A stretch of 32,814 nucleotides of DNA from Candidatus Bathycorpusculum hydrogenotrophicum (GTDB lineage: Archaea; Thermoproteota; Bathyarchaeia; Bathyarchaeales; Bathycorpusculaceae), in assembly GCA_009783705.1 (NCBI GenBank), contig WRCX01000016.1, forward strand, positions 1 through 32,814, written 5' to 3'. The notes under the pieces were generated by a model. It searched no databases and was not told the DNA's origin. It saw nothing but the letters and a program-made list of their open reading frames with translations. Below are positions 2,026-21,772 of the stretch, one piece after another. Made by a program: the position numbers and the translations under genes. The first letter of the stretch is position 1; every line of letters starts with the position of its first letter.

Positions 2026-4538
<2,513 letters not shown>

Positions 4539-5425: not shown

Positions 5426-7515
5426 TGAAGTTACCAGCCATAACTTTTCAAAAAGACCGTCTTGCAGGATTTGAGGAAGTTATTGAAAAAGAATGGCTCA
5501 TAACCAACGGATTAGGTAGCTACGCTGCCACAACAGTACCAGGGATTAACACCCGCAAATACCACGGCCTACTAGTGGCAGCACTCAATCCACCCGGAGA
5601 CCGCACAATATGTCTTGCCAAACTCGATGAAGACATACTACTCACAGCCAACAACAATAACAATAACAATACCACCTATAGGCTGGGTTCCAATCAATTT
5701 CATGATCTGATTTTTCCTGACGGTTACAAATACATTAAACAGTTCACGCTCAATCCCTATCCTAGTTACCTCTATGGGGTAGGCGCTGTTGAAGTTGTGA
5801 AGACGATTTTTTTGCCTCAGCTCAAAAATGCTGTTGCCATAACCTATAATATAAAAAATCAGGGTGATACGGCGCTAAAGATGCGGCTCTACCCGCTACT
5901 GAGCTGTCGTTATTATCATAATGTTGTTGATCGGTTTCGGGTGCCTCTAAATTTTAGTCAAGAGAGCTGTAGTGATAAAGAGTTTCTGGTTAGTTTTATG
6001 CGTCCGGAGGCAACTGTTGGGTGTCGTATAACTGAGGGTGTTTTTGTTGAGGGGCTTAATTGGGTTGAGCGTCTGTATTATCGTGATGAGGCGCTTCGGG
6101 GTGAGGCGGATTTGGATGATCTTTTTCAGCCGGGTTATTTTGAGTTGCAAGTGCCTGCTAAGGCTGAGAAAGAGTTTGCAGTCACATGTGCCGCCAGCCA
6201 GAAAGAAAAAACTGCAGTGGAAACATTAGACGCTATTGGTGCCACCTATCAAGAAATAAAGCATAGCTTTACGGTGGAATTAAATAACAAGGCGGCTCTG
6301 CTTGCAGATTTCTATCGGATACATCCCGAGGTGGTGCAGAGTGAGTGGTTAAATATGATGTTGCTTGCCGCTGACGCATTTATTGTTCAAAACCACGCTG
6401 GACAAAAATCTGTTATTGCGGGTTATTATTGGTTTGAGCCGTGGGGTCGAGACAGCTTTATCTCTTTAGCGGGATTGATGCTGATTACGGGCCGGTTTGC
6501 TGAGGCCAAAGATACTCTGTGGAATTTTATGCGTTACTTTAAAGATGGGTTGATTCCCAACTTTGTTGCGGATAAAACAGGAGTCCCCATCTACAACACC
6601 GTTGATGGTACACTTTGGTATGTTAATGCGGTGCATCAGTACCTCAAATATACCCAAGACTACAACTTTGTTAAAACGGAATTGTGGGAGAATCTCAAGG
6701 GGGTAGTTGTGCATCATCAAAAGGGTACTCTCTTTGGAATTCAACTCGATAAAGATGGATTGCTTATGCATGGTCCGCGTCTTACTTGGATGGATGCAGT
6801 AGTAGAGGGCGATATGATTACGCCGCGGGCAGGCAAGGCAGTGGAAATTCAGGCGCTGTGGTATAATACACTCAAAATCATGGAACATCTAGCCGAAAAA
6901 TTTGAAGAACCAGCCTTAGCCAAACAATATGCAAACATGTCGGAGCATACCAAGAGGAGTTTTAATGAGAAATACTGGAATGCTAAACAGGGGTGTCTCT
7001 ATGATGTGCTTGAATCAAACGGTGTTGATGATGCCTCCATACGGCCCAATCAGATTTTTGCTGTTTCTCTTGATTATTCGATGTTAAATAAAGAAACCAG
7101 CCATCGAATCGTCGATGTAGTTAACAAAGAACACGTAACACCTCATGGACTGCGCACCCTATCAGTTGAGGACCCTAAGTTTTTAGATAAATGCGCAGGT
7201 GATCGGCGCAGTCGAGATTCCGCCTATCACAATGGCACCATTTGGCCCTGGCTATTGGGTCCATACATAACAGCCTATCTCAAAGTCAACAACTACTCCA
7301 GCCAAGCACGAAAACAAACCCTAGATACGCTCATCACACCACTATTCACAGAGGACATCTATCAAAATAGTCTAGGAACCATAAATGAAATCTATGACTG
7401 CAAACCTCCAAACACACCCAGAGGTTGCATCGCGCAAGCATGGAGCATAGCCGAACCCCTAAGAGCATACATAGAAGACATACTCCAAATCAAACCAACC
7501 AACCAACAACAATAA
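5425..7515 (+). CDS. Archaeal-type glycogen debranching enzyme (amylo-alpha-1,6-glucosidase, GH133-like)
   Basis: This 696-residue enzyme hydrolyses alpha-1,6 branch points of glycogen-like polymers. The N-terminal GDE domain shows LITNGLGSYAATTVPG and NTRKYHGLLVAA. The C-terminal (alpha/alpha)6-barrel domain begins near residue 310 and shows YYWFEPWGRDSFISLAGL, GVPIYNTVDGTLWYVNAV, RLTWMDAVVEGDMITPR and HNGTIWPWLLGP, with the acidic residues typical of the family. The frame is open from 5359, but the ATG at 5425 coincides with the end of the DUF89 stop and gives the normal N-terminus, so the two are translationally coupled. A short run of Asn codons (about 5650-5670) interrupts the N-terminal domain and looks like a slippage-prone insertion. 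It is probably in one operon with tpiA. Confidence 0.95.
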   Translation: MKLPAITFQKDRLAGFEEVIEKEWLITNGLGSYAATTVPGINTRKYHGLLVAALNPPGDRTICLAKLDEDILLTANNNNNNNTTYRLGSNQFHDLIFPDGYKYIKQFTLNPYPSYLYGVGAVEVVKTIFLPQLKNAVAITYNIKNQGDTALKMRLYPLLSCRYYHNVVDRFRVPLNFSQESCSDKEFLVSFMRPEATVGCRITEGVFVEGLNWVERLYYRDEALRGEADLDDLFQPGYFELQVPAKAEKEFAVTCAASQKEKTAVETLDAIGATYQEIKHSFTVELNNKAALLADFYRIHPEVVQSEWLNMMLLAADAFIVQNHAGQKSVIAGYYWFEPWGRDSFISLAGLMLITGRFAEAKDTLWNFMRYFKDGLIPNFVADKTGVPIYNTVDGTLWYVNAVHQYLKYTQDYNFVKTELWENLKGVVVHHQKGTLFGIQLDKDGLLMHGPRLTWMDAVVEGDMITPRAGKAVEIQALWYNTLKIMEHLAEKFEEPALAKQYANMSEHTKRSFNEKYWNAKQGCLYDVLESNGVDDASIRPNQIFAVSLDYSMLNKETSHRIVDVVNKEHVTPHGLRTLSVEDPKFLDKCAGDRRSRDSAYHNGTIWPWLLGPYITAYLKVNNYSSQARKQTLDTLITPLFTEDIYQNSLGTINEIYDCKPPNTPRGCIAQAWSIAEPLRAYIEDILQIKPTNQQQ

Positions 7516-7672
7516 CAACAAAATAACCCCACCAAGCAAACCTCAAACAGCTAAAACTAACAGGAAGCCGAGGAGTTTTTGAAGTTAGAGGAAACGCAGA
7601 AATCGCAGTTTGGTGTGCAGTAATTTGCAAAACTTTAAATGGCTACATTAGAATAGCACAAGGGGTTATCAA
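7516..7672 (+). promoter_or_regulatory. Intergenic region with promoter of the surface protein
   Basis: ACTTTAAAT near 7631-7639 is a TATA candidate about 38 nt upstream of the ATG at 7673. AGGGG at 7660-7664 is a weak Shine-Dalgarno motif eight bases before that ATG. The first part, just after the debranching gene, is A+C-rich. No gene or RNA was recognised. Confidence 0.4.
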
Positions 7673-8704
7673 ATGGTATCCTCTATGTCTAAGGTTAAAC
7701 TGTCAGGTTTACTTGTTGTAATGGTTCTTTTGGCATCACTTTGTTTGTTTTGGGGTTCCTCGGCAACGCCTGAAATAAACACCACTACCACCATGACAAC
7801 AAAACAAACCGATATCACAACAACAGCATCTATGTTGTCGATTAGTCCTCTCCAGGCTGAAACAGATGCAACGCCGACTCCAACCCCAACTCCCACGCCT
7901 ACGCCATCGCCTACTCCTGAGCCAACCGTAACCCCGACCCCGCCGCCTAGACCCGAACCTACTACTAAACCGAATTTAGAGCTCACATCCAAAAGTGCCT
8001 CTGCATCTAATCTAAGAGTTGAGGTGAGCGGTAGATTAAGCTACAATAATAGCGCCATCCCCAGTGCCAAAGTGTTCCTTAAAAGTAGCATCGATAATGG
8101 AAACACTTGGGAAGATTTCGCATTAGAACAAACCCGAGCCGATGGCAGTTTTAATATGATTTGGATCCCCAAAACCACAGGCAACTATTTACTTTGCGCC
8201 TACTGGGAAGGAAACAACACCCTGCGATGGATGAACACCACCCAAAGCCTCGCACTAACAACCGATTCCTCAGGCAAAGTCTCCTCAGCATCCTCAAACG
8301 CAACCATAACAGACCTAAAATATGATTCCGCAACCCAAACACTAAGTTTTAACACAAACACAACCCAAACCTCCACACCCATTACCATCACCATACCCAA
8401 AACACTTATCGACGATACCCAAACACTCCAAATAAAAATAGACGGAAAAACCACCACAACCTTTACCAGCAAAGCCCAAGATGACCTCTGGATCATAACC
8501 TGCCAAGCCGATCAAGGCAAACAAAGCATCACCATAAAAATACCCCAGCAATCAATTATGAGTCCAAACACAACACCTTGGCTATACATAGCCATAGTCA
8601 TCATAGCCCTAATCATTATTGTAGCCATAGTTACAACCATCCGCCGCAGACGCAAAACTGCCGCAACCGTAGCCGCCATCCTAAAAGAAACCCGCCAAAC
8701 ATAA
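7673..8704 (+). CDS. Secreted, C-terminally membrane-anchored surface protein with Pro/Thr linker
   Basis: The 343-residue protein begins with a signal-like segment (KVKLSGLLVVMVLLASLCLFW). A Thr-rich stretch and a Pro/Thr repeat linker follow (about residues 62-100). Next come an Ig-like beta-sandwich (about 104-180, with FLKSSIDNGNTWEDF and TTGNYLLCAYWEGNN, as in proteins that vary surface presentation) and a second beta-rich region with many N-glycosylation sequons. Near the end, WLYIAIVIIALIIIVAIVTTI is a transmembrane helix followed by Arg/Lys, so the bulk should face outside. The repeat reading PTPTPT on this strand also opens a frame on the other strand, which I regard as a shadow. The start is ATG 7673 or 7685. 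Function is unknown; a cell-envelope role is likely. The 3' two-thirds use mainly A/C-ending codons. Confidence 0.82.
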   Translation: MVSSMSKVKLSGLLVVMVLLASLCLFWGSSATPEINTTTTMTTKQTDITTTASMLSISPLQAETDATPTPTPTPTPTPSPTPEPTVTPTPPPRPEPTTKPNLELTSKSASASNLRVEVSGRLSYNNSAIPSAKVFLKSSIDNGNTWEDFALEQTRADGSFNMIWIPKTTGNYLLCAYWEGNNTLRWMNTTQSLALTTDSSGKVSSASSNATITDLKYDSATQTLSFNTNTTQTSTPITITIPKTLIDDTQTLQIKIDGKTTTTFTSKAQDDLWIITCQADQGKQSITIKIPQQSIMSPNTTPWLYIAIVIIALIIIVAIVTTIRRRRKTAATVAAILKETRQT

Positions 8705-8761
8705 AACCACAACCACAACAATAGATCAATCATTATTCTTTTTTTATCCTTTAGGCACTAC

Positions 8762-8771
8762 CTATAAGATA
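8762..8771 (+). promoter_or_regulatory. TATA box and Shine-Dalgarno for the ERCC4 nuclease
   Basis: CTATAAGATA is a TATA candidate that would start a transcript near 8793. AGGTGA at 8798-8803 is a Shine-Dalgarno motif five bases before the ATG at 8809, so this gene has a short leader. Confidence 0.5.
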
Positions 8772-8808
8772 GATTGTTGCTACCCATGTGTAGCCATAGG
8801 TGAGAGGC

Positions 8809-9552
8809 ATGTCTAAAGAGCAAACCCTGCTTCCATTCGTTAAAGAAAAAAACAAAGACGGCGAACCTACAATCATAATGGATAGCCGCGAAGCGTCCAG
8901 TGCCAAAAAAATCGCCACTGGCTTAATTGAGAAAGGCGCCCAAGTCAAAACCGAGATGCTAGAAAAAGGCGACTATATTCTAAGTGATCAATGTGCAGTG
9001 GAACGCAAAACCGTCAGCGACTTTGTCTACACCCTCACCCGACGCTTCCTCTTTGAACAACTCTACCGCCTAAGAGACGTCTACCCAAAATCCTTCATCA
9101 TCCTAGAAGGCTATATGCCCATCATCTACAAATACAGCAACATCCAACCCCAAGCTATCTGGGGAGCCATGTTCAACCTCGCCAAAAACGGCATCGCCAT
9201 AGTCAACACCGCAAGCCAAAAAGAAACCATAGACTTTCTCTACACCGCCGCACGCCAAGAACAAATCATAGAAAAACGCAACGCCATAGTCCACGCATTC
9301 AAAAAATGCGACACCCTCTCAGACGCACAAATATACTTCATCGCCAGCCTACCCAGCATCGGACGAGAAAAAGCCACCGCCCTCCTAGAAGCATACCAAA
9401 CCCCAATAAACGCACTCATAAACATAGACGACTGGGAAAAAACCGTACACGGACTAGGCCCAACCATAACAAACCGCGTCAAAGACCTACTAAACACACC
9501 CCACCAAAACAAAAAAGAAACCGAAGAAGGCCAAAACCCACAAACACCCTAA
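8809..9552 (+). CDS. XPF/ERCC4-type structure-specific endonuclease with helix-hairpin-helix region
   Basis: XPF-family nucleases cut branched DNA next to single-strand/double-strand junctions in repair and fork processing. The protein (247 aa) carries the nuclease signature: IIMDSREASS, then GDYILSDQCAVERKTVSDF, the family GDx(n)ERKx(3)D pattern with the metal-binding Asp and Glu. The C-terminal part (about 165-235) contains ASLPSIGREKATALLEAY and HGLGPTITNRVKDLL, two helix-hairpin-helix motifs for DNA binding. There is no N-terminal helicase domain, so this is the short crenarchaeal/thaumarchaeal-like XPF and not Hef. The N-terminal segment EQTLLPFV resembles a PCNA-interaction (PIP) motif, although those usually sit at the C-terminus. 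The start at 8809 is chosen over GTG 8800 because of the Shine-Dalgarno motif. Confidence 0.93.
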   Translation: MSKEQTLLPFVKEKNKDGEPTIIMDSREASSAKKIATGLIEKGAQVKTEMLEKGDYILSDQCAVERKTVSDFVYTLTRRFLFEQLYRLRDVYPKSFIILEGYMPIIYKYSNIQPQAIWGAMFNLAKNGIAIVNTASQKETIDFLYTAARQEQIIEKRNAIVHAFKKCDTLSDAQIYFIASLPSIGREKATALLEAYQTPINALINIDDWEKTVHGLGPTITNRVKDLLNTPHQNKKETEEGQNPQTP

Positions 9553-9609
9553 ACCGAAGCATTTTTCAGAAAATTGAGGCAACCTCGGCCTAGCAAGAGG
9601 ATCCCTAAA

Positions 9610-9618
9610 CCTTTAAAG
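9610..9618 (+). promoter_or_regulatory. TATA-like box for the cytochrome b5-like gene
   Basis: CCTTTAAAG lies about 30 nt before the GTG at 9645. This would place the transcription start within a few bases of the start codon. No Shine-Dalgarno motif is present. Confidence 0.4.
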
Positions 9619-9644
9619 CCACTCGCATTCAATATTTATTACAG

Positions 9645-9890
9645 GTGTATTTTTTGTCACAAAAAAAAGTAACCCGTCAAGAACTTGAAGCTAACAACGG
9701 CAAAGACGGTAAACCCGCCTGGATAGCCTATCAAGGCAAAGTCTATGATGTATCTGAGAGCAGTTTCTGGAGTGACGGCGAACATATGGGCATGCACAAT
9801 GCCGGCAAAGACTTAACAGAAGACCTCGACATGACACCCCACCAAGACGAAAACTTTAACAAACTCAAACTCATCGGCGAATTAAGCTAA
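9645..9890 (+). CDS. Small cytochrome b5-like heme/steroid-binding domain protein
   Basis: The 81-residue protein has the compact prokaryotic cytochrome b5 fold. It reads VTRQELEANNGKDGKPAWIA, then YQGKVYDVSESSFW, then GEHMGMHNAGKDLTEDL and TPHQDENF. The His residues in the HMGMHNAGKDLT segment and in TPH are the expected heme ligands or pocket residues of this subfamily. No membrane segment or extra domain is present, so it may be a soluble electron carrier or ligand-binding protein in the cytoplasm. The GTG at 9645 is taken as start; TTG 9654 is also possible. Its neighbours do not reveal a redox partner. Confidence 0.85.
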   Translation: MYFLSQKKVTRQELEANNGKDGKPAWIAYQGKVYDVSESSFWSDGEHMGMHNAGKDLTEDLDMTPHQDENFNKLKLIGELS

Positions 9891-10190
9891 CTATTAACCA
9901 ACTAAAACAGACAACAACAAACACTATCGACGCTACGCAACTCATCCAAACATTTTTTATTTTTCCAACCGCTAAAGCCTCATTGGACAATATTGAAAAC
10001 AGAAATGTTCTCGCCATACGGTATGTTGATAAGTAAAAAGGTTTGCAATGAACTAGTGTGATGACTTTGATCACGCTGAGACACTTATGGATAGTTGATC
10101 TATAACAAATTAGTCAACAACGAATTGGTAAACAATGAAGAGGTACAGCGTGATACTGTGACTAATGAATATTTGCGAGTTTGATCTGGT
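9891..10190 (+). other. Intergenic region with hairpin and possible remnant of a YL-repeat gene
   Basis: GTGAT (10058-10062) pairs with ATCAC (10070-10074) around a 7-nt loop and may mark the end of the cytochrome b5-like transcript. From 10095 to about 10180 one frame reads LIYNKLVNNELVNNEEV and then TNEYLRV before a stop. This resembles the repeat style of the next protein and may be a decayed part of it. ATTAGTC (10109-10115) and GACTAAT (10160-10166) form a loose inverted repeat. Confidence 0.3.
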
Positions 10191-10634: not shown

Positions 10635-10654
10635 AGAGAGGCTATCACCTCTCT
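10635..10654. terminator. Hairpin at convergent junction (bidirectional terminator candidate)
   Basis: AGAGAGG (10635-10641) pairs perfectly with CCTCTCT (10648-10654) around a 6-nt loop. On the plus strand it follows the YL-repeat gene and is itself followed by a T-rich tract at about 10685-10710. It lies before the ends of the minus-strand small genes. A related hairpin occurs at 14133-14148. Confidence 0.55.
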
Positions 10655-10739
10655 TAGTTCCCTTAGTGACGACGTTTAGCTGTCTTTCCTTTTTATTTTT
10701 TTGTTTTACCTATGTTTTGCATTTTTCCGTTATTTCGTG

Positions 10740-10835
10740 TTAATCAGCCTCAGTAAGTCTTGGTGGGGTTGGGGTTTTTTGGGTTTCTTGTAGGATAAGT
10801 TGTTTTACTTGGTTTACTACGTTTTTTGGGTCCAT
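10740..10835 (-). CDS. Possible 31-residue small protein downstream of the 57-aa gene
   Basis: An ATG at 10835 opens 31 codons (MDPKNVVNQVKQLILQETQK, then a Thr/Pro-rich tail) ending at a TAA at 10740. It starts 16 bases after the stop of the preceding minus-strand gene and shares its A/C-ending codon style. No Shine-Dalgarno motif is visible and the length is very short, so it may be a chance ORF in A+C-rich sequence. If real, it would be the third gene of the Pcc1-like operon. Confidence 0.3.
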   Translation of the reverse strand: MDPKNVVNQVKQLILQETQKTPTPPRLTEAD

Positions 10836-10851
10836 TAGGGTTCAGTGTTTT

Positions 10852-11025
10852 TTAGCAGGTTGCTTTGTCGTTGTTTTTTTCTGTGTTGTTTCGTCTCAGT
10901 AGTTCGGGGAGTTGTGTGGAAGCTTTTGAGAGGGTATCTTTAAAGACTTCCATTAATTCATCGTTAACTTCAAGATCGACAGTTACTCGCAGGTATCCTT
11001 TCTTTTCATACATCCGTTCAGTCAT
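10852..11025 (-). CDS. Small conserved-looking protein (57 aa) in Pcc1-like operon
   Basis: On the minus strand an ATG at 11025 opens a 57-codon frame beginning MTERMYEKKGYLRVTVDLEV and continuing NDELMEVFKDTLSKASTQLP to a TAA at 10852. A textbook Shine-Dalgarno GGAGGTG occupies 11031-11037, five bases before the ATG, and is the strongest such signal in the window. The start overlaps the end of the upstream Pcc1-like frame by 8 nt (ATGACTGA), so the two are probably translationally coupled. The predicted shape is one strand pair followed by an amphipathic helix. No family is recognised. The plus-strand ORF over the same bases is a shadow. Confidence 0.75.
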   Translation of the reverse strand: MTERMYEKKGYLRVTVDLEVNDELMEVFKDTLSKASTQLPELLRRNNTEKNNDKATC

Positions 11026-11311
11026 AATGCCACCTCCTAAAGATGCTTAGTTGGGTGGGTAGGAGGTTAACTGCAAGATGGGCTGCTTGGATGTTGGTTA
11101 GGTCCAGCTGGAGTTCTATTTGGTAGTGGTATCTGCCTAGTCGTTTGGTATGGGTTTTGTAGTTGTTGACTATGCCGCTTTCTTTGTAGCGGTGCAGTCT
11201 TTGGTTTATGAATATGGTTAGGATTGTGGGTGCTAGGGGTTCGAAGGTGAAGGCTACTTTGATTAGGACTTTGGCTGTGCTTTGGGAGAGTGATTCTAAA
11301 ATGGGTCTCAA
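11018..11311 (-). CDS. Pcc1-like small protein (candidate KEOPS subunit)
   Basis: The 97-residue frame starts with TTG at 11311. Its order of elements is a beta strand (AKVLIKVAFTFE), a helix (PLAPTILTIFINQ), two strands (GIVNNYKTHTK and YHYQIELQLDL) and a C-terminal helix (TNIQAAHLAVNLL). This is the fold order of Pcc1, the small dimerising subunit of the KEOPS complex that makes the tRNA modification t6A. The strand-then-helix end resembles the family's I-E-A-D-x-x-A-L-R-A-x-L-N motif, but the classical LNSYLRW ending is not conserved, so I am only moderately sure. An A/T-rich TATA-like sequence at 11324-11335 is close to the distance expected for a leaderless start. It overlaps the SD-led downstream gene. 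Pcc1 genes often sit with other small information-processing genes, which fits. Confidence 0.5.
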   Translation of the reverse strand: MRPILESLSQSTAKVLIKVAFTFEPLAPTILTIFINQRLHRYKESGIVNNYKTHTKRLGRYHYQIELQLDLTNIQAAHLAVNLLPTQLSIFRRWHYD

Positions 11312-11410
11312 TCAGCTATTCGTCCTTAAAAGTTTAGCAGTCGTTTCTGTTGCTTGCAGATAAGAGCTTGAATAAGAGTAGGCTGTAGGTTTTTTTAAGT
11401 CTGTGTGATT

Positions 11411-11418
11411 GTATATAC
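11411..11418 (+). promoter_or_regulatory. TATA box for the uracil-DNA glycosylase
   Basis: GTATATAC is centred 26 nt before the A of ATG 11440, a clear leaderless arrangement. The divergent Pcc1-like promoter shares this intergenic region (11312-11439). Confidence 0.7.
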
Positions 11419-11439
11419 CCAACAACAAGTGGCGTTTAT

Positions 11440-11940
11440 ATGATGGATGATCTTTACAGACGGGTTTGTGGTTGTAGGCGTTGTCAGCTTTGGGAGGGTA
11501 CAAAGCATGCAGTTCTTGGTGAGGGTCCTTTTGATGCTAAGGTTATGGTGGTGGGGCAGAATCCGGGTGCTGAGGAGGATGAGTCGGGTCGGCCGTTTGT
11601 AGGCCGGGCGGGTAAATATCTCAGTAAAACGTTTGCTGAATTTGGTATTTGTCGAGAGTTACTTTTTATTACCAATATCGTTAAGCATACTTCGCCTAAA
11701 AATCGTAAACCGTCTCCCGCTGAAGTTGCGGCCTGTTTGCCTTATTTGCAGGAGCAGATCTGTTTGATTCAGCCTAAAATTATTGTACTTTTGGGAGCTT
11801 CAGCTAAAGAGACACCGCGAGTTGAGGGGATTAAATATTTTGAGGTTGTGCATCCCTCAGCTGCGATGCGTTTTACCAAGATGCGTGAAAAATTCAGAAT
11901 GCAGATTGCAGAACTTGCAGAACAAATCAAACAAACCTAA
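11440..11940 (+). CDS. Family-4-like uracil-DNA glycosylase with altered Fe-S ligand set
   Basis: Family-4 glycosylases remove uracil from DNA as the first step of base-excision repair. The 166-residue protein has motif A in VVGQNPGAEEDESGRPFVGR (residues 38-56), LLFITNIVK, and the second motif HPSAAMR (138-144). Family 4 binds a 4Fe-4S cluster with four Cys. Here C12 and C15 (CRRC) and C99 (AACLPYL) are present, but the third position is His83 (VKHTSPKNR) where Cys is usual. Motif A has Gln40 where family 4 commonly has Glu (GE-PG). Both changes could alter the cluster or the base specificity. The start is fixed by the TATA box. Family assignment is firm at superfamily level, less so at subfamily level. 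Confidence 0.85.
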   Translation: MMDDLYRRVCGCRRCQLWEGTKHAVLGEGPFDAKVMVVGQNPGAEEDESGRPFVGRAGKYLSKTFAEFGICRELLFITNIVKHTSPKNRKPSPAEVAACLPYLQEQICLIQPKIIVLLGASAKETPRVEGIKYFEVVHPSAAMRFTKMREKFRMQIAELAEQIKQT

Positions 11941-12043
11941 CAACAATAATCAGCTAAGGTTTTAGCAGATATTTGTGGTTTTGATGTTTTGTAGCTTGTG
12001 AATGTTTTTTAGTTTGTTTAACGTATAATGTTTGGTAATAGTT

Positions 12044-12523
12044 ATGTTAAGAGCATCAGCTATGTTTCGAGTAGCATTTCTTTCAGTTTTTGTAGTTGTT
12101 TTGATGTTTTCTTTTGTTGGCGTAGCCAATACAGCTACCCCTGCTAAGGATGAGGGTCTATTAGTAGTTAATTCAAGTACAAATAATAGTGACTCGCCTT
12201 CATATTTTGGTGAGGGTGTGCGTGTAACAGTTTCAGCAGTCAAAAAAGATGATGGTATGCTCTATAATTGTAGTTGGAAGGTTGAACGATGGTCTGGATC
12301 AGATGTATTTGAGGGATGGCCTAGATCAGCAGAAGTCGACGGTAGCCTATGCATTACTCTATGGGCTGATGAATATGAAATGTTTGGTACGGTAACTGAA
12401 AATGTGTTTTACGGGTTTTCCTCTGGCCCCTTTACCAGTATAGGTGCTTCTGCAGGCAGCGGTTTCTATAGCTCAGATCTAGGGTGCACTAGCTGCAACA
12501 CGGGCAAAGCACAACTACCCTAA
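12044..12523 (+). CDS. Small secreted protein of unknown function
   Basis: The protein of about 159 residues starts with a hydrophobic signal segment (MFRVAFLSVFVVVLMFSFVGVANTATP) followed by a mature region of mainly beta character with aromatic residues (SWKVERWSGSDVFEGWP). It has four Cys, two of them in a terminal CTSC pair that could form disulphides outside the cell. No membrane anchor or known domain is seen. The frame is open from TTG 12032; ATG 12044 or ATG 12062 are likelier starts, and a TATA-like TATAAT lies at 12024-12029. It sits between a repair gene and a membrane TIM-barrel protein, and the context does not suggest a role. Confidence 0.6.
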   Translation: MLRASAMFRVAFLSVFVVVLMFSFVGVANTATPAKDEGLLVVNSSTNNSDSPSYFGEGVRVTVSAVKKDDGMLYNCSWKVERWSGSDVFEGWPRSAEVDGSLCITLWADEYEMFGTVTENVFYGFSSGPFTSIGASAGSGFYSSDLGCTSCNTGKAQLP

Positions 12524-12856
12524 AGATAAACACAAACAACACCCCACTTTATTTTAGGTATTATATATGGACAGGGTTGTTTGTTGTGTTCTCTGTGCGT
12601 TTTATTGTTATTGTTTGATGGAATCCAGTATTGCCTAATCTGTTATTTGTAACATCGGCAGGTTTTATCGTTAATTACATACAAGGTTATTTTTTTCTGG
12701 TTTATCTTGTGGTTTGTTTAGTTGGGGGTTTTGTGCGAAGGCTTTTTAACGATTAGGGGCATTTATTTGTAGATAAGATACAGGAGATTGGGGTATCTGG
12801 GCTGTTTGGGTGTTGAGAGTTTTTGCAGTGATGCATGGTTTAGGTGGGGTTATTTT
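12524..12856 (+). other. G+T-rich intergenic and leader region
   Basis: From about 12540 the plus strand is dominated by G and T and continues so into the next gene. CTTTTTAAC near 12742-12750 may be a TATA box. The frame of the next gene is open from TTG 12788, but a better start lies at 12857, so 12788-12856 is probably leader. No RNA gene was recognised. Confidence 0.4.
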
Positions 12857-14074
12857 GTGTCTAGATTCAAGGTGGGGTCGTCTGATTTTTTGGCGTCAGC
12901 GGGGCGGCATTTGGGTAAGGCTTTGGGTCTTTTTTTAATTGTTGTCATAGGGGTTTCGGGTGCAGTTGTTGTTTATAGTTTTCAGCAACAGCAAAGTGCT
13001 CAAGAACAAGGTGTTGATGAGTTTTATTTTGGGGTTTCTTTTGGGGGTCAGACGCCTGAGGAGGCCAAGGTTTTGGTTGATAAGGTGAAGGATTATACTA
13101 ATGTTTTTTTGATTAATTCGTATGATTTGTCGGTTAATGAGAGTGCGCTTAGTGAGGTTTGTGATTATGTGGCTCAATCGGGGTTAAAGTTTACGGTGTA
13201 TTTTGAGTTTGTTTCTCGGGTTACTTATCCGTGGCATCAAACTTGGCTGGATAGTGCTCCTGTTCGTTGGGGGGATAGTTTTTTGGGGGTTTATTTCTAT
13301 GATGAACCCGGAGGCAAACAACTCGATACCAAGCAAATGTTTAGTGAAGCGTCTAGTTATTGTGAGGCGGCAGATTTTTTTGTGCAAACCATCAGCCAAA
13401 CCAATAGTATGATAGATCTTAAAAACCGCTCAATCCCCGTGTTTACTTCGGATTATGTTCTTTATTGGTGGGATTATCTTGCTGGGTATGATGTGGTGTA
13501 TGCAGAGTTGGGCTGGGAGCTTGACTCCAGACAGCAGATTGCGCTCTGCCGCGGAGCCGCAACCACACAAAACAAAACCTGGGGCGCCATAATCGTTTGG
13601 AGCTACTATGAACCACCCTACATGGCCAGCGCCCAAGAAATCTACCAAGAGATGCTGTTGGCATATGAGGCTGGAGCAAAATATGTAACGGTCTTTAACT
13701 ACCCAACCTACCCCGAAGATAACCCCTACGGCGTACTCTCAGAAGACCACTTTATAGCCATGGAAAACTTTTGGAACCATACCAAAACAAACCCAAGACC
13801 AAACCCAACAACAGCAGCCAAGCAGGCTCAAGTGGTGCTGGTTTTGCCTCCCGATTATGGCTGGGGCATACGGCGCAACAAACACTTAGCACAAGACAAC
13901 ATCTGGGGTCTTTGGCCCGAAGACGAAAAAGCACCCCCTATCCTAGAGAACCTATACGAACTCATAGATCGGTATGGGTTAGATTTAGATATAGTCTTTG
14001 ATGATCCAGCATTTGATTTCAACAACATCTACCACCAAGTGTACTACTGGAACCAAACAAAACCCAACCCATAA
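12857..14074 (+). CDS. Membrane-anchored TIM-barrel protein, glycoside-hydrolase-like
   Basis: From GTG 12857 the protein has 405 residues. An N-terminal signal-anchor (GKALGLFLIVVIGVSGAVVV) places the rest outside the cell. The outer domain reads as a TIM barrel: FYFGVSFGGQTPEEAKVLVD, TNVFLINSYDLSV, LKFTVYFEFVSRV, FLGVYFYDEPGGKQLD, VYAELGWELDSRQQ, WGAIIVWSYYEPPYM and AKYVTVFNYPTYPED. The strand-end acidic residues in YDEPGG and SYYEPPY are candidates for catalysis, but I cannot assign a GH family. A second alpha/beta segment with YGWGIRRNKHLAQDNIWGLW and YGLDLDIVFDD closes it. AGGTGG at 12842-12847 supports this start over TTG 12788. It may act on extracellular polysaccharide, as may the GH5 enzyme at the other end. 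Codons change from G/T-ending to A/C-ending around 13300-13550. Confidence 0.78.
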   Translation: MSRFKVGSSDFLASAGRHLGKALGLFLIVVIGVSGAVVVYSFQQQQSAQEQGVDEFYFGVSFGGQTPEEAKVLVDKVKDYTNVFLINSYDLSVNESALSEVCDYVAQSGLKFTVYFEFVSRVTYPWHQTWLDSAPVRWGDSFLGVYFYDEPGGKQLDTKQMFSEASSYCEAADFFVQTISQTNSMIDLKNRSIPVFTSDYVLYWWDYLAGYDVVYAELGWELDSRQQIALCRGAATTQNKTWGAIIVWSYYEPPYMASAQEIYQEMLLAYEAGAKYVTVFNYPTYPEDNPYGVLSEDHFIAMENFWNHTKTNPRPNPTTAAKQAQVVLVLPPDYGWGIRRNKHLAQDNIWGLWPEDEKAPPILENLYELIDRYGLDLDIVFDDPAFDFNNIYHQVYYWNQTKPNP

Positions 14075-14132
14075 ACAGGGCTAAATCAGCCGAAGAGTCA
14101 AAATCAATTTTTGAGTTTATGGAAAAAATAAG

Positions 14133-14148
14133 AGAGGCTAATGCCTCT
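14133..14148. terminator. Hairpin at convergent junction (terminator candidate)
   Basis: AGAGGC (14133-14138) pairs perfectly with GCCTCT (14143-14148) around TAAT. The preceding AGAGAGGCTA decamer is identical to that of the hairpin at 10635, and both elements have GACGAC about 33-40 nt downstream. It lies between the convergent TIM-barrel and CBS genes. Confidence 0.5.
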
Positions 14149-14285
14149 AGAGAGTTTGTTGTCTATTTTTGACGACTGTTTTGTTGTTATGACAGAATCT
14201 TTCTCGATGTCAAGCAGATGCCTTACGATGGTTTTGGAGGCGGTGTCTGTGTATTTGCAAAGTATCCCTTAGCAGCAATTCCAAG

Positions 14286-14442
14286 TTAACTACAAAAAAC
14301 CCCACCCCAAAACAACTCACACTACAAATCTACACAAAAACATAAAAACACAAAACAACAACCACACACGACTTAAAAAGCACAAAACAAACCCCAAATC
14401 AACACAAAAACCAACTAACCCAACATAACAACTAACAAACTC
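14286..14442. other. A+C-only low-complexity tract in convergent intergenic region
   Basis: In 157 bases of the plus strand there are only two G (14370 and 14380) and few T, so the other strand is almost free of C. It follows the TIM-barrel gene and precedes the end of the CBS gene. No reading frame, repeat unit or RNA gene was recognised. It is the extreme case of the strand-composition pattern seen through the window. Confidence 0.7.
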
Positions 14443-14557
14443 AGTACAACAAGTATGAAAGGTTATGAAAATAAAATCTAAAGGGCACAACAGGCAAAAG
14501 CTTCCCAGCTATGAAACGACCCGAAATCTGCCCAGAGATTATAAAATAAGGGAAGAG

Positions 14558-15739
14558 TTATTGCTCTTCTGAGGGCAATCCTATTTTGCGCAGGTAATCG
14601 CGTGCAAAGCGCGGGTTGTAAGATAAGAGTTCTTTGCTTCGTAGCAGGCGTCGTTCGAGTCGGTCGAGTGCAACTTTGAAAGTGGGTTCTGCACCCCAGC
14701 CCTCACCAGCAGCAACAAAACTACCCTTGGTTGTTCGAAATTGCAGACGGCAATGAACCATAGGGGTGTCGCGTGTGTTGGTACCACGATGGGTTTTCAT
14801 GTAGACAAATAGTGAACCCCGCTCAAAAGCTCCTTGAAAACGGCGGGCAAACGAATCAAATTCAGCCATCATAAATTGCTGCTGCTCAGGATTAATTTCT
14901 AGATCTTTGGTACTAAACTGAAGCGTTAGACGATGCTCAGCTGTCTCCATTTGACTTATAGGCTCTAAGAAATCAAGTTTAGTAACAACCCCAGTTAGTC
15001 GCTCAGCATCAACTATACAAAGACAAGATATGTCATGATAGTGCATCAAAGCCTCACAATCATGAAGAGATTTTTTGGGATCAACAATTATGACGGGCTG
15101 TCGCATGATAGCTTTAGCGGCAATGCCCAAAGTGGCTATGCGGTCACCTGCAAAGTCAGTGTTTCCCATGCGCTTAGGGGGGAAGTAGAGACTTTCAAAG
15201 ATGTCTTGTATGCTGATCATACCTGCAAGACGACCGCGTTCTAGGACGGGAACATGAGATATGCCGTATTCGCGCATCAAACCCAAAACAGCGCCAACAC
15301 TGCGATTTGTTTCAACGGTGTGGGGTGCGCGGGTCATAACGGTTTCGACATGTGCATTGCCCCAGGGAGCTTCAGCAAAAGCGTGAATTACGTTTTCATC
15401 AGTGACAAAGCCAATTATTTTGTTTTTTTCAAGCACCGGAAGTTGACGTACACCGCTGCCAATCATTAGTTTTGCTACACGACTCAACGAGTCATCTAAA
15501 CTAATTTTGGAGGCACCGGTCATTATATTTTTGACTTTGAGTCGGGTTAAGTCTAGGCGGCTGCGTATAACGGCGCGACGGCTCACCATCCCTGCATAGT
15601 TGCCTTTGTCATCTAAAACGGCCAGGACAGGAGGCATGTCTTTTTTGAAACCCTCTAAGCATTTTGATGCGCTATCGTTTTCGAAAACTGCGTTAAATTT
15701 CTCTGAGTAGATATCCTTAACAGTAACGGATACTGCCAT
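14558..15739 (-). CDS. Four-CBS-domain protein with C-terminal HPF/RaiA-like domain
   Basis: The 393-residue protein has four CBS motifs at about 5-60, 69-122 (VKNIMTGASKISLDDSL), 131-184 (ETVMTRAPHTVETNRSV, SHVPVLERGRLAGMIS) and 209-262 (DISCLCIVDAERLTGVVT). CBS domains often sense ATP, ADP, AMP or S-adenosylmethionine. Residues about 268-370 (LTLQFSTKDLEINPE, HCRLQFRTTKGSFVAAGEGW, FKVALDRLERRLLRSKE) have the strand-helix-strand-strand-helix order and final KLERQL-like helix of ribosome hibernation factors (Ribosomal_S30AE). Together they suggest a ribosome-binding protein gated by energy state; this is inference. The ATG at 15739 has a TATA box (CTTTAAATTC on the minus strand, 15771-15781) that implies an 8-15 nt leader without Shine-Dalgarno. 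Confidence 0.85.
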   Translation of the reverse strand: MAVSVTVKDIYSEKFNAVFENDSASKCLEGFKKDMPPVLAVLDDKGNYAGMVSRRAVIRSRLDLTRLKVKNIMTGASKISLDDSLSRVAKLMIGSGVRQLPVLEKNKIIGFVTDENVIHAFAEAPWGNAHVETVMTRAPHTVETNRSVGAVLGLMREYGISHVPVLERGRLAGMISIQDIFESLYFPPKRMGNTDFAGDRIATLGIAAKAIMRQPVIIVDPKKSLHDCEALMHYHDISCLCIVDAERLTGVVTKLDFLEPISQMETAEHRLTLQFSTKDLEINPEQQQFMMAEFDSFARRFQGAFERGSLFVYMKTHRGTNTRDTPMVHCRLQFRTTKGSFVAAGEGWGAEPTFKVALDRLERRLLRSKELLSYNPRFARDYLRKIGLPSEEQ

Positions 15740-15838
15740 TGAGAATCACAGCAAAACTAAGGTACAAGTTGAATTTAAAGGTTGTAAATCCACACATACA
15801 AATCCATCGTGACAAGTCAAGAGATAATATTTGATACA

Positions 15839-16193
15839 ATGTTGCAAAGAGAGAGTTGAATAACCGAAGCATTTGAGAGACGTTTAACAGTTTTTGGATT
15901 TAATCATCACTAATTTAAGGCACATACTAAACGGTCAATTCAATTAAAAAAAGCATGTGATGCAGAGGACAATAGTTTACGTGATCAATTACGGCGTTAA
16001 TTCAAAAAAATATGATTGAGGGAAACTATTAGCAAAAGTAGAAACTAAACTTACACAGCTACTAAATAGTAACAACGACTGATGAGGCACTTGCTAATCG
16101 AAACATTAAATCAATCAGAGTATCCTCAGATCTCTATCGAGAGATCACTGGTTTAACATATTTCCGTTTCACACTTCAGAAATCTTAAACCAT
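15839..16193 (+). pseudogene. Probable decayed gene remnant, function unknown
   Basis: Reading from ATG 15839 gives MLQRES, a stop, then ITEAFERRLTVFGFNHH, a stop, then FKAHTKRSIQLKKACDAEDN and SLRDQLRR before another stop, all in one frame. Further on, frame changes give KVETKLTQLLNSNND and DEALANRNIKSIRVSSDLYR followed by EITGLTYFRFTLQKS. The fragments look like helical, charged coding sequence broken by several stops and shifts. No domain is recognised. The stretch lies between the CBS protein and the GTPase gene. Confidence 0.4.
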
Positions 16194-16200
16194 CAGCCAC

Positions 16201-18327
16201 TTATAAGCCCGGTTGTAATGCTCGCGAAAGAACTAAACCGATGAAGTTTATTATTTTGCCGTTTCTTTCTTTTCGATCCTTTATTGCAGAAAAGTTATAA
16301 TCTTTGAGCAGATCATCTATACGTGCTTCCAACATATCTCGATATGCTTCTTTTTCTTCACCCCAAACAGTAATCTCTATACGTCTATTATGATAAATTA
16401 GTACAGTCGCACTTGCGTTGTTTCCCGCTAGAACCATGCCCTCCTGCCACACGGCAATTCTTTTTTCGCTTCCTTCTTCGCGCGTCGCTATATTATTTTC
16501 ATTTTTGCAAAGGTATCTGTTGAAAAAATCAGCAGGAATTTCATCTAGTGTATCTCGCTCTACATGCGTTATGAGACTATCGGGCTTTGCACTATTAATT
16601 ACATCCGTTGGCACAAACCTAGCAGCAGCACAAGGAACAAGCAACCCATAAATACCACCTTTATTGCGAAAACCTATTTTATGATGTTCCATCAAATCAA
16701 AAATATGCTCCCTTTCACCCTTTGGATAAATGCTACTCTCATCTGCAAACACTGCATCAAAAACGTCTTCTGAATATTTAATAAGCCCAGTCTTATTTTT
16801 CTGCAAATAATCAATAACCTTATAGACCCCGCGACTAATCCAACAAGGGTCAAGCACATAATCCTCCATAAAAGCATAACTCAGTGCGACACCCAAGGTA
16901 TCAAATAATTCCACTACACGTTTTTGGTCATGTTTTTTTATACCATTACTACTAAAAATTGCCTCTAACTCATTTTTTTTCAAAATTTTTTTATTTGTTT
17001 GTTTAAATAGATTTGTTACCTCACACATGGCGCGACTGTCATTTTTGCCAAAAGCTTGATGCCCAACGCTTTCTATATAAGCCGTAAGATCTTTCTTAAA
17101 AGCATCGAAACCAGCCACATCTTTGCAAATATTAAAACTATAAAACTTGTGGATAATAGATTTGTATTCACCTTCCATGAAAGAGCTAAAATCCTCAAGA
17201 TTTTGACTACGATTATCTGACTCATTGATGACAATAAACGCCTTTGCTTTGTTTTCTGAATAAATGCGAATGGTATCAAGCCAATAGTTGAGTCGACTAA
17301 TGTCGCGACATTCCTCCTCTCGAGCATTAACAACAAGAATGTATACACAGTTTGCCGACATAAAACACCTGTGGGATGCATGATATATCACTTGTCCACC
17401 AAAATCCCACACACGTGTTTTTACACCGTTAAAATCCAACTCAATTTCGGTGTTCACACCATGAGTTGATTCTTCAGGTGTAGGATCGCTATAAGTTCCG
17501 TTGAGACGTCTCGCCAACGTTGTCTTTCCCGCACTGGCCGAACCTAGAAGTATTAATCGCGTTTCCCGCTGAGCATAAACTAAACCTCCTTGTTTTTCTG
17601 CTTCCTTCAAATAGCGGGCAACTGCAGCCGCCCCTTGTTCCATAATTTCAGCTGGAACTTTAAGGCGCGCCTGAATTTCTTTATAGTCTTCATTATCCAG
17701 AACAAGACCTTTTTTAAATAAACTTGTGTACCATTTACCCCAATATTCACAACCTAACTTGCACAAAGCACTTTGAAAATTACCCCACAAGTCCCCATAA
17801 ACAGCAAGATTTCTCCTGAAAGCATTATTTCCAGACTTTATGCTTCTTAAATCTTCAATCAGGATCGCCTTTAAGTCGATTGTAGATCCACCGAAGGCGA
17901 ATGCTTCAACGGCTGCGTCAGCTGCATCGGTTGCGACTGTATCGGGTGCGTCGTAGGTAAATGCGAAGTCGTCAACTGTGGCTACGCGGACGGCGGCAGC
18001 AACGGCCCGAACAGCCGCGTCAATTGCACGAGTATCGGCATAGGCAGCGGTTGCGCGTACGGCAACGGCAACATCAACGCGGGTATCGGCAGATGCGGCA
18101 GTTTCGTAGTTATAGGCATTGGCGACGATATCTAGTGATTTTAATATCGTAAACAGATACTTTTGCCTTTGATCCCCGCGGTTGGTGTGCTTCCAGTAAT
18201 CAAAGTTTCCGCGTATTGCCAGAAAGGGCAAGGCTCGCACGGCACACAACCAAGCAAAAAAACAAACATCCTTAAGTGCAAAACCAGACAAACTTTCCTG
18301 AATTTTATCTAGGAATTCTTTGTCCAT
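16201..18327 (-). CDS. Roc-COR family GTPase (Roco-like) with Ala-rich N-terminal region
   Basis: The 708-residue protein has a Ras-like Roc domain at about 255-425: G1 LGSASAGKT (261-269), G2 Thr in ESTHGV (288), G3 DFGGQ (308-312) and HRCFMSANCVYILVVN. The fourth motif is NESD (368-371), where NKxD is usual. A COR-type region follows (about 430-700). Residues 1-75 form a helical domain (FALKDVCFFAWLCAVRALPF, GNFDYW) of a type I cannot name. Residues about 76-146 are an Ala/Val/Asp-rich array with two ADTR units 17 residues apart, in place of the leucine-rich repeats common in Roco proteins. Such GTPases act as large dimeric switches. No partner is adjacent. Codon use lacks the strong strand skew of neighbours, and decayed sequence lies on both sides, so it may have been acquired by transfer. 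Confidence 0.85.
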   Translation of the reverse strand: MDKEFLDKIQESLSGFALKDVCFFAWLCAVRALPFLAIRGNFDYWKHTNRGDQRQKYLFTILKSLDIVANAYNYETAASADTRVDVAVAVRATAAYADTRAIDAAVRAVAAAVRVATVDDFAFTYDAPDTVATDAADAAVEAFAFGGSTIDLKAILIEDLRSIKSGNNAFRRNLAVYGDLWGNFQSALCKLGCEYWGKWYTSLFKKGLVLDNEDYKEIQARLKVPAEIMEQGAAAVARYLKEAEKQGGLVYAQRETRLILLGSASAGKTTLARRLNGTYSDPTPEESTHGVNTEIELDFNGVKTRVWDFGGQVIYHASHRCFMSANCVYILVVNAREEECRDISRLNYWLDTIRIYSENKAKAFIVINESDNRSQNLEDFSSFMEGEYKSIIHKFYSFNICKDVAGFDAFKKDLTAYIESVGHQAFGKNDSRAMCEVTNLFKQTNKKILKKNELEAIFSSNGIKKHDQKRVVELFDTLGVALSYAFMEDYVLDPCWISRGVYKVIDYLQKNKTGLIKYSEDVFDAVFADESSIYPKGEREHIFDLMEHHKIGFRNKGGIYGLLVPCAAARFVPTDVINSAKPDSLITHVERDTLDEIPADFFNRYLCKNENNIATREEGSEKRIAVWQEGMVLAGNNASATVLIYHNRRIEITVWGEEKEAYRDMLEARIDDLLKDYNFSAIKDRKERNGKIINFIGLVLSRALQPGL
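17895..18110 (-). repeat. GC-rich degenerate coding repeat in the Roco-like gene
   Basis: This part of the GTPase gene encodes an Ala/Val/Arg/Asp-rich array (ADTRVDVAVAVRATAAY, then ADTRAIDAAVRAVAAAV). Its sequence is GC-richer than the surrounding gene and rich in CG dinucleotides. The degenerate 51-bp (17-aa) period suggests repeat expansion. The plus-strand ORF over it is a shadow. Confidence 0.6.
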
Positions 18328-19042
18328 AACATACCCACTTAAATTTATACTAACACATCTGTAATTATTAAATAATCATGTTATCGCAAAAGTTACTGCT
18401 CAACCAATTATGTGAATTATTTTTGATGCTTTTGATGCAACAAACATGATAGGGATCACATGAATATTTTGCCAGTATTTGGTGTTCGGAATATTGTCAA
18501 CATCGGAATAATGCTGGAGGTCGGAACCGGTCAGATAGTTAGGGAACAACAACTGAAGAACAAAACTTTGTTTTTATGGTTTATCCAAGTCCACGCCTAC
18601 AGGCGACTCAACAACTTGACAAACTTAAGGTTTGGCGTTTTCTGAGTTTAGGACCCACAATAGCACTTTTTTATACGATAGACTTCAGTTTCTGTTTTTG
18701 GAAACGGTCGCTCATGCGTTTGCGTGCGGCACAACTTTTGCAGAGAATCTATTTGTTTTTGCGTGTAATCCAATTTTGACATCGGATACTTATCCGATTA
18801 GCGGTCACGATGTTTAATATCATTGTTCTATGTCAAACAACAGGTTTACTCATTAAAAAATTGGACAAAATACAGAAAAATGGTCTAAATTCTAAATAAA
18901 ACTAGAACAGTATATCCTTGTAGTTTAAATAAATCTCTGCTTTCAAGTTATAGTCGAGGTTAGTTAAACCTCACCTTGTTTTGTTATTATTTTAAAAATA
19001 GTTTTTTCGGTCCGCTTCTGTCATGAAGGGAATTAGGTAGCT
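18328..19042. other. Intergenic region with possible degenerate coding sequence
   Basis: This divergent region separates the GTPase (minus) from the plus-strand gene at 19043. Between 18460 and 18817 three overlapping frames are each open for 60-67 codons but none has a promoter, Shine-Dalgarno motif or recognisable domain. They may be pieces of one frameshifted gene. 18820-19020 is AT-rich with a TATA-like run (ATTTTAAAAATAG, about 18990-19002) before 19043. No transposase end or attachment repeat was found. Confidence 0.35.
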
Positions 19043-19441
19043 ATGGTTCTAAAACAAAAAGAACTCGTTGATGAGTTGAAAATTGAGTGGAAACGGCTCT
19101 GGCGGGAAAGGGTAGATGATAGAGTTCGTGCTGAGGGTATTGCATGTGATGATTACAGTTCGCTTTTTATCGATAAGGGCACCATTATTCATGCGACTCG
19201 GGATTTTAAGGCCCTTAATTTTAAAGATATTCTCCATCAACATGAAGTCGCAGACCCTGAGCGCTATGTTGCCCCTGATCCACAGGTGGGTGGCTGGAGT
19301 AAATTTGTCAAAGATAACATCATTATGAAATCACAGAGCAAAAACGAAAAATTTGTAGAATACTATAGCAACAACAACCGTGGGGTTCATAGTGAGAAGC
19401 AGGCGCAACGGAAAAGTGGCCGAGGCTGGTTGCATATCTAA
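19043..19441 (+). CDS. Protein of unknown function, first gene of the glycan region
   Basis: I do not recognise this 132-residue protein. It is charged, with no signal peptide or membrane helix: an N-terminal helix (QKELVDELKIEWKRLWRERV), a central segment with DYSSLFIDKGTIIHATRDF, VGGWSKFVKDNIIM, and a basic tail (HSEKQAQRKSGRGWLHI). AGGT at 19035-19038 is a weak Shine-Dalgarno motif for ATG 19043. It is followed 21 bases later by a winged-helix gene, and the two may be a small regulatory pair preceding the surface-glycan genes. Confidence 0.6.
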   Translation: MVLKQKELVDELKIEWKRLWRERVDDRVRAEGIACDDYSSLFIDKGTIIHATRDFKALNFKDILHQHEVADPERYVAPDPQVGGWSKFVKDNIIMKSQSKNEKFVEYYSNNNRGVHSEKQAQRKSGRGWLHI

Positions 19442-19462
19442 TTTTGAGTAGAAGGCGTTTGT

Positions 19463-19825
19463 TTGGTTAATTATCGCGATAGGCTAGACATAATTGCTGA
19501 TATTCTTGTTGTGGTCAGCAGAGAGGCTAAAAAAACGCAGATTATGTATCAGGCTAATTTGAGCTACAAGGTTTTACAGCGTTATCTAAATGAAATTGCG
19601 GGTGCCGCTCTTATTCGATTTGAGGATGATCAGCAGATTTATCGGTTAACTGGCAAGGGGCAGAATTATTTGGATGCCTACAAAGAATATGCCCGGTGCA
19701 GCAAAAATATGGAAAAACGCCTCAATGATTTCACTGCTAAGCAAAAAATTCTCCAAGAACTCTGCCTCGCCCAAAGCGATTTTTCCAATCAACAATTCCA
19801 AACGGATGAACCAATTGAAACTTGA
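19463..19825 (+). CDS. Winged-helix DNA-binding protein (archaeal HTH_45-like)
   Basis: The 120-residue protein fits the small archaeal winged-helix family. RLDIIADILVVVSREAKKTQ is the first helix, IMYQANLSYKVLQRYLNEI the recognition helix pair, and ALIRFEDDQQIYRLTGKGQN the wing. The C-terminal half (about 70-110) is a helix suited to dimerisation. Such proteins bind promoter DNA as dimers, and it may regulate the following surface-glycan operon. The start is TTG 19463, with AAGG five to eight bases upstream. The DUF1616-like gene follows after 21 bases. There is no obvious ligand-binding domain. Confidence 0.85.
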   Translation: MVNYRDRLDIIADILVVVSREAKKTQIMYQANLSYKVLQRYLNEIAGAALIRFEDDQQIYRLTGKGQNYLDAYKEYARCSKNMEKRLNDFTAKQKILQELCLAQSDFSNQQFQTDEPIET

Positions 19826-19846
19826 AAATCAGAAGGTGAAAACCAG

Positions 19847-20428
19847 ATGAGCTCTCAGCGTAATATAGCTCTTATTGTTATCATATGTGTTGTGGGGGTG
19901 TTGCTTGTGGTTTCTCCATTTCTGCAACAGCTCACAATTGCACCGCAAAAGGAGTCTTTTAGTGAGATGGCTCTGTTTAGTTCCAATCATAGAACCGATT
20001 ATCCCTCAAATGCTACCTCGGGTGAAACCTATGAGCTGATTATAGAGGTTACTAATCAGCTGGGTTATGATGCGGATTATACCATTGAGGCGAAGTTCCG
20101 AAATACTACTCAGCCGGGACCAGATAGTTTTAACCATACAAGCAGTTCCCTGATAGCTTTGGAGAGCTTTAGAGTATCTGCAAATAATAATCAGACTGTA
20201 GAGGTGCCTCTTGAGGTGTCTTTTCAATTCAGCCCTACGGGGTATGTGGATTTGCTCACGCTTAACAACAAACCCTATCCCCTCAGTACACAATTAGAAT
20301 ATGATATAGAGAGAAACAATTACTATGGTAATTTGTTTTTTGAGTTGTGGGTTTATAATCAAACCACCAGCCGCTTAGAATATCATGAGCGGTATTTGAG
20401 TTTGTGGCTAAAAATGAACACCGAATAG
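19847..20428 (+). CDS. DUF1616-like membrane-anchored surface protein
   Basis: This 193-residue protein has an N-terminal transmembrane anchor (NIALIVIICVVGVLLVVSPF) and an extracellular beta-sandwich: EMALFSSNHRTDYPSNATSG, YELIIEVTNQLGYDADYTIE, then FFELWVYNQTTSRLEYHER. The pattern of a 'YP-N-SGE-Y-L-V-N-E/Q-YT' core resembles DUF1616, an archaeal family often found beside cell-surface glycan genes. Several N-x-S/T sequons occur in the outer part. AAGGTGA at 19833-19839 supports ATG 19847. Its role is unknown; it could bind or present the glycan made by the neighbouring enzymes. Confidence 0.75.
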   Translation: MSSQRNIALIVIICVVGVLLVVSPFLQQLTIAPQKESFSEMALFSSNHRTDYPSNATSGETYELIIEVTNQLGYDADYTIEAKFRNTTQPGPDSFNHTSSSLIALESFRVSANNNQTVEVPLEVSFQFSPTGYVDLLTLNNKPYPLSTQLEYDIERNNYYGNLFFELWVYNQTTSRLEYHERYLSLWLKMNTE

Positions 20429-20445
20429 TTTATGGAGGTTTTAGT

Positions 20446-21075: not shown

Positions 21076-21084
21076 GGCTTAGAT

Positions 21085-21756: not shown

Positions 21757-21772
21757 AGGAGGAGAGATAAAG

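Follow-up and report, generated by a model that had tools for sequence, protein, structure and literature searches.

Introduction

Strand asymmetry in DNA composition is usually taken as the trace of replication or transcription. Leading strands are often keto-rich in bacteria, and the coding strand carries an excess of G+T in vertebrates. In kataegis, strand-coordinated clusters of deamination arise around break ends, and GC-biased gene conversion produces a local, tract-scale bias that resembles weak selection. Published work describes transcription-associated mutation bias (PMC2927911), opposite GC skews at the 5' and 3' ends of genes in unicellular fungi (PMC3315797), and the G+T-rich leading strand of bacterial chromosomes (PMC3269016).

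Here we show that the DNA of a termite-gut archaeon is a mosaic of ~1-kb patches in which one strand is biased toward G/T and the other toward A/C. Like the vertebrate transcription-associated asymmetry, these patches combine an excess of A-to-G and C-to-T on one strand in coding and non-coding DNA, but they are ~1 kb long, occur with both signs, follow the DNA strand and not the gene, and have a mean coding-strand offset of opposite sign. Like the fungal GC skews, they vary within genes, at 4-fold sites and outside coding DNA; the fungal skews, however, are tied to gene position, on which the archaeal patches hardly depend. They share a keto/amino strand asymmetry with bacterial replication skew, in domains about three orders of magnitude shorter and with no arm-scale component seen. 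Kataegis also mutates opposite strands on the two sides of a break over kilobase tracts, whereas the archaeal patches resemble a slow equilibrium and not bursts, and involve both A and C. GC-biased gene conversion likewise acts on tracts of coding and non-coding DNA, but here the axis is keto/amino and strand-asymmetric, and GC content is far less variable than keto skew. We found no earlier description of kilobase keto/amino patches in the literature searched.

The 32,814-nt stretch analyzed here (the window) is contig C16 of a 107-contig, 2.24-Mb MAG. Its closest named genomes are those of the Bathyarchaeia member Nitrososphaerota archaeon Coa324_bin13 (99% protein identity in one gene) and of Candidatus Bathycorpusculum species. 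That Bathycorpusculum isolates originate from termite guts is in part general knowledge. Their source has also been described in the literature (PMC10684969).

Results

Keto skew alternates beyond the range of codon choice

We defined keto skew as G+T minus A+C. In 300-bp windows its standard deviation (SD) is 0.195; that of purine skew is 0.077 and that of GC content 0.085, and binomial noise would give 0.058. When only coding windows are considered the SD is 0.201, against a mean of 0.101 and a maximum of 0.110 in 200 draws from a synonymous-codon null, and across the whole genome it is 0.175 against 0.097 for the null. The alternation of G/T-rich and A/C-rich segments that a sequence-only reading had claimed for this DNA therefore lies outside the synonymous-codon null, and all nine intervals that it named have the sign it assigned. 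The G/T-rich intervals are 1140-1400 (keto +0.65), 10740-11300 (+0.37), 12540-13300 (+0.41), 25000-25900 (+0.23) and 31000-32500 (+0.38); the A/C-rich ones are 3360-3780 (-0.47), 7260-9560 (-0.32), 13550-14450 (-0.24) and 21340-21690 (a weak -0.19). GC skew and AT skew contribute equal shares to these values. An HMM assigns ~21% of the sequence to a GT state, ~16% to an AC state and ~62% to a neutral state.

Genes with a higher T fraction among pyrimidine-ending codons also have a higher G fraction among purine-ending ones (r=0.82 over 1,054 genes), and this coupling of the T/C and G/A axes persists in 2-fold codons only (r=0.78). Codon positions 1+2 track keto skew at 4-fold sites (r=0.64). 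The two axes are also coupled in intergenic DNA (r=0.54), where keto SD is 0.173 and purine SD 0.108, indicating that the pattern is more than codon choice.

These data bear on translational codon selection, in which strongly selected genes would adopt A/C-ending codons, which form Watson-Crick pairs with U34/G34 tRNAs, and other genes would adopt G/T-ending ones. Such selection would fit the mean A/C offset of coding strands, and some very A/C-biased genes resemble central metabolism by sequence (TrpB-like, -0.92; GlnA-like, -0.89). However, the same bias is found in intergenic DNA and at codon positions 1+2, ribosomal protein genes lie at -0.14 to -0.31 or at +0.44, many genes are past neutral toward G/T, C34 tRNAs occur, and the sign switches inside single genes. 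We consider this explanation improbable. The intergenic signal led us to reject codon optimality as the main cause, although it may explain the mean offset.

If selection favored transcripts that fold weakly, and each mRNA became keto-only or amino-only at random, both the arbitrary sign and the coherence within genes would be explained. In predictions for two gene sets, however, real genes fold no more weakly than the synonymous-codon null (mean -38.7 versus -38.2 kcal/mol), and G/T-rich genes fold more strongly. We rejected this candidate, which seems barely credible.

Patches along the window

A GT patch at 1051..2100, with its sign read on the DNA strand, covers the upstream region and body of an RNase HII gene (1282-1953, plus strand) whose 4-fold keto skew of +0.65 is among the most GT-biased in the genome. 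Two plus-strand genes change from GT to AC internally. The first, a TrmB/CBS-type regulator gene (2026..3780), has 4-fold keto skews of +0.46, +0.13, +0.03 and -0.82 in successive quarters, and its 3' end forms an AC patch (3300..3780). The second, a gene without a Pfam family (12788..14074), switches near 13450, with quarter values of +0.75, +0.56, -0.33 and -0.35. Its 5' half belongs to a GT patch (10650..13400) that also includes non-coding DNA (10650-10950) and a UDG-family gene (11440-11940), and its 3' part to an AC patch (13500..14550) that runs beyond the stop codon into a convergent intergenic region (14251-14550; keto -0.61 and -0.43). In-gene switches had been proposed for these two genes, where they are confirmed, and for 27783-28967, where the quarters (+0.20, -0.05, -0.23 and +0.22) show no clean switch.

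A small GT patch (5896..6146; keto +0.38) lies inside a glycogen-debranching gene. At the corresponding position keto skew is +0.33 in the sister genome (L028); the patch is absent from two other relatives (L034, -0.02; L029, -0.04), and a third has the opposite sign (L030, -0.19). These comparisons indicate a patch gained on one lineage. The 3' end of the debranching enzyme falls in an AC patch (7200..9960) that continues through a low-complexity protein gene, an intergenic gap and an ERCC4-domain gene (8800-9552; 4-fold keto -0.81). The low-complexity protein gene (7673-8704) is strongly A/C-rich, and its product is probably membrane-anchored and matches no family above cut-off.

The stretch from 14550..24400 is mostly neutral and provides an internal control; it carries CBS, Roc-COR, DUF1616, PIG-L, aminotransferase and glycosyltransferase genes, and is possibly more recently acquired DNA that so far is without marking. 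The Roc-COR GTPase gene (16201-18327, minus strand) lies in this nearly patch-free stretch. A moderate GT patch follows (24450..26000), in which ORFs on the minus strand and the beginning of a GFO/IDH/MocA gene on the plus strand have one DNA-strand sign despite their opposite orientations. A long GT patch (30000..32685; peak +0.76 at 31201-31350) contains a plus-strand glycosyltransferase-like gene (30054-30953; 4-fold keto +0.56) and a minus-strand GH5 gene (30985-32685). The latter, a cellulase-type gene in a termite-gut archaeon, has an unusually A/C-rich coding strand.

Patches of ~1 kb follow the DNA strand

The correlation length of the patches is ~1 kb. In a distance-decay analysis of 1.54 Mb of the genome, with genes called by a simple greedy longest-ORF method, the correlation of 4-fold residuals dropped, between distances of <=500 bp and 3 kb, from 0.75 to 0.05 inside genes, from 0.57 to 0.04 for pairs of same-strand genes, and from 0.31 to ~0 for opposite-strand pairs with signs read on the DNA strand. 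Adjacent opposite-strand genes have the DNA-strand sign in common and not the coding-strand sign (r=0.32, 95% CI 0.16-0.47, n=135). Together, the decay with distance and the agreement of opposite genes show that the skew is organized in ~1-kb patches of the DNA strand, with looser continuity at gene ends. That segments cross gene boundaries, as had been claimed, is thus borne out, though the signal is attenuated there. We rejected a signal strictly bounded by genes or transcripts, which initial correlations of 0.70 within genes and 0.28 across them had suggested, when crossing was seen with windows set 100 bp inside genes and twice the sequence.

A fragmented replication skew, resulting from rearrangements or from many origins, would draw on the keto-rich leading strands common in bacteria. 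Autocorrelation of keto skew, however, vanishes by 2-3 kb and means over 10 kb lie close to zero; on these grounds we rejected replication domains, in agreement with the proposal that the pattern does not follow replication. In addition, the sign switches inside single genes, and the weak polarity of patch walls (below) is opposite to that of origins. A replication origin of the pattern is very improbable.

The accompanying suggestion that the pattern may follow transcription proved mostly wrong. Only 15% of the variance is attributable to gene strand; it takes the form of an even A/C offset of coding strands (mean -0.20 at 4-fold sites), which soil relatives with weak patches share. This genome does have a 5'-to-3' trend from G/T to A/C, one that relatives lack, but it is very small: gene halves differ by 0.050 +/- 0.011, and the between-gene SD is 0.31. 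Profiles around the starts and ends of transcription units are nearly flat. Transcription-associated mutation or repair, with sense and antisense transcription exposing one strand and giving each unit its own skew, would account for the coding-strand offset. It would also fit the closer agreement of same-strand neighbors with gaps of <=20 bp (r=0.61) than of those with gaps of >80 bp (r=0.24), and the enrichment of patch switches within 100 bp of gene ends (44% versus 27.5%). Yet both signs occur in all kinds of genes, position in the gene or unit matters little (the half difference of 0.05), opposite-strand neighbors agree on the DNA strand, ribosomal protein genes are not extreme, and the offset extends to the weak-patch soil relatives. 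We judge this explanation rather unlikely. The 15% share of gene strand, the ~1-kb scale and the shared DNA-strand sign argue that neither replication arms nor transcription produces most of the pattern.

Walls from GT to AC reach further than walls from AC to GT (0.135 versus 0.084 at 800 bp, with the gap kept to 2.4 kb). A third-moment test of this polarity at 1 kb, one of several window sizes tried, gave p=0.02 on residuals and p=0.002 on raw skew. The polarity is reverse-complement-symmetric and weakly suggests two-sided resection, in which 3'-ended strands are modified on either side of a point. We also rejected a polarized short motif as driver: among G/T-only 6-mers, none showed a conspicuous excess in GT patches.

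Substitutions within patches run in one direction

The aligned skew profile correlates with that of the sister genome at r=0.96 (85.5% nucleotide identity), and the correlation falls to 0.70 at 76% identity and 0.56 at 72%, with local sign changes. In patches that differ, changes are nearly all one-way, with up to 48:0 transitions in 250 bp. We polarized substitutions in the genome itself and in G028 by parsimony, with classes taken from local composition, which yields rates that are approximate at such divergence. In GT patches the rates per site are 0.115 for amino-to-keto and 0.056 for keto-to-amino changes, implying an equilibrium of +0.34 next to a standing skew of +0.37; in AC patches they are 0.054 and 0.097, respectively. 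Because equilibrium skews lie near standing skews, the pressure is current: a direction-biased process, probably chiefly of transitions, is ongoing and near-stationary, and the patches are no decaying relic.

A-to-G and C-to-T changes are biased equally, and raw A-T/C-G transversions are as one-sided as transitions. At codon positions 1+2, changes run 2:1 in the patch direction, with raw transversions at 646:314. We initially held that transversions rule out deamination, and withdrew this after likelihood fits with repeated hits. Four-fold sites are close to saturated (identity 0.43-0.61), and an earlier fit at these sites was split between transitions-only and transversion-sharing bias. With repeated hits and invariant sites included, transitions-only is better at position 3 (~9 log units) and equal at positions 1+2. 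Both deamination-like and mismatch-like chemistry remain compatible with the substitution data.

A mismatch-based explanation is offered by NucS/EndoMS, which is specific for G/T, G/G and T/T mismatches and blocks homeologous recombination (PMC7736090, PMC8228993). In a keto/amino-biased gene conversion, the enzyme would cut keto-keto mismatches and spare amino-amino ones (A/C, A/A and C/C), so that keto-keto heteroduplex is rejected, amino-amino heteroduplex is accepted, and the usual invading strand turns toward A/C over conversion tracts. The reported specificity fits this model, as do the ~1-kb tract scale, the equal imbalance of raw transversions and transitions, and the repair gene content, with NucS present in 58 of 61 relatives and MutS absent from 31 of the 32 genomes of the genus, which depends on NucS instead. 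Against this, the likelihood prefers transitions-only at position 3 and is indifferent at positions 1+2, weak-patch relatives have NucS just as often, and the model requires a hypothetical locus-specific invading strand. We regard the NucS model as tentative and, on balance, unlikely, second to the deamination reading discussed below and ahead of transcription; that strand-asymmetric conversion of this kind moves synonymous sites, protein sequence and non-coding DNA alike is decidedly unlikely. Loss of NucS as the cause was rejected given its presence in nearly all relatives. The genus' only MutS-type matches are two adjacent MutS_V-domain ORFs in a soil relative (G006, C13:124816-126803).

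Strong patches occur in two termite-gut clades

Patches are strong in one outgroup genome and in each of two distinct termite-gut clades, and weak in soil relatives; codon-axis covariance is 0.008-0.028 in termite genomes versus <=0.006 in the soil genomes measured. A tree of two genes places the termite genomes in two distinct clades nested among soil lineages. A pooled between-species correlation had suggested that soil relatives are unaffected, which we rejected as confounded by species GC content; per-genome values describe a graded trait. Distant Bathyarchaeia loci (L050-L096) invert the relation seen in termite-gut genomes: most have larger purine skew (SD ~0.08-0.14) and smaller keto skew. 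One locus contains a dispersed repeat-bearing region (L025, 13497-14697) with dozens of partial matches across related genomes.

Neither termite clade has an intact copy of endonuclease V (EndoV, PF04493), which is present in most soil relatives. One member, G012, retains EndoV only as overlapping fragments with an in-frame TGA (C26:7790-8342), and its sisters are without EndoV. Median patch strength is 0.27 in genomes without EndoV and 0.17 in those with it (p=0.002, uncorrected for ancestry). Three genomes without EndoV have weak patches (G016, G017 and G024) and one with EndoV has strong patches (G032), some genomes being represented by only 10-40 kb of sequence. From these gene contents, EndoV loss appears neither sufficient nor necessary and its match to patches imperfect, and EndoV status is confounded with habitat and ancestry. 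Of 32 genomes, 31 retain a TIGR00375-like protein that scores under the family cut-off and is possibly EndoQ, and the UDG-family gene noted above lies in the window.

Discussion

What is observed, and what an explanation must account for, is a pattern of ~1-kb patches that follows the DNA strand, extends beyond codons, is active at present and differs among clades. We favor, with a probability of roughly 0.35, strand-biased transition mutation in tracts that repair or recombination repeatedly renders single-stranded. The segments would have built up under a strand-asymmetric substitution pressure that still acts on ~1-kb DNA tracts, in which one strand undergoes A-to-G and C-to-T changes and drifts keto-rich while its complement becomes amino-rich. 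The chemistry would be A/C deamination or G.T mispairing on the recurrently single-stranded strand, most likely exposed in DNA break, gap or recombination repair, with resection baring 3'-ended strands. Repair of deaminated bases would be weakened in the termite-gut lineages, and tracts would keep their sign if the places of exposure persist over long evolutionary time.

We base this reading on the coupled C-T and A-G axes, the gene-independent ~1-kb decay, the one-way substitutions and the transitions-only fit, together with the two strong-patch termite clades without intact EndoV and, given modest weight, the polarity of GT-to-AC walls. Counting against deamination with EndoV loss, such loss alone would act on A-to-G, yet both transitions are equally biased, and UDG-family and TIGR00375-like proteins are kept. 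Counting against simple deamination, raw transversions follow the patch direction, unless repeated hits account for that.

The patches bias codon usage and amino-acid composition, and can mislead phylogenies, composition-based calls of horizontal gene transfer and measures of codon adaptation in this group. The two strong-patch termite-gut clades, one with a visibly broken EndoV in one member, offer a natural comparison. An active, largely gene-independent asymmetry at kilobase scale would suggest that DNA repair or recombination in archaea involves a further process that tells the strands apart, and the keto/amino patches would be a map of where that process acts.
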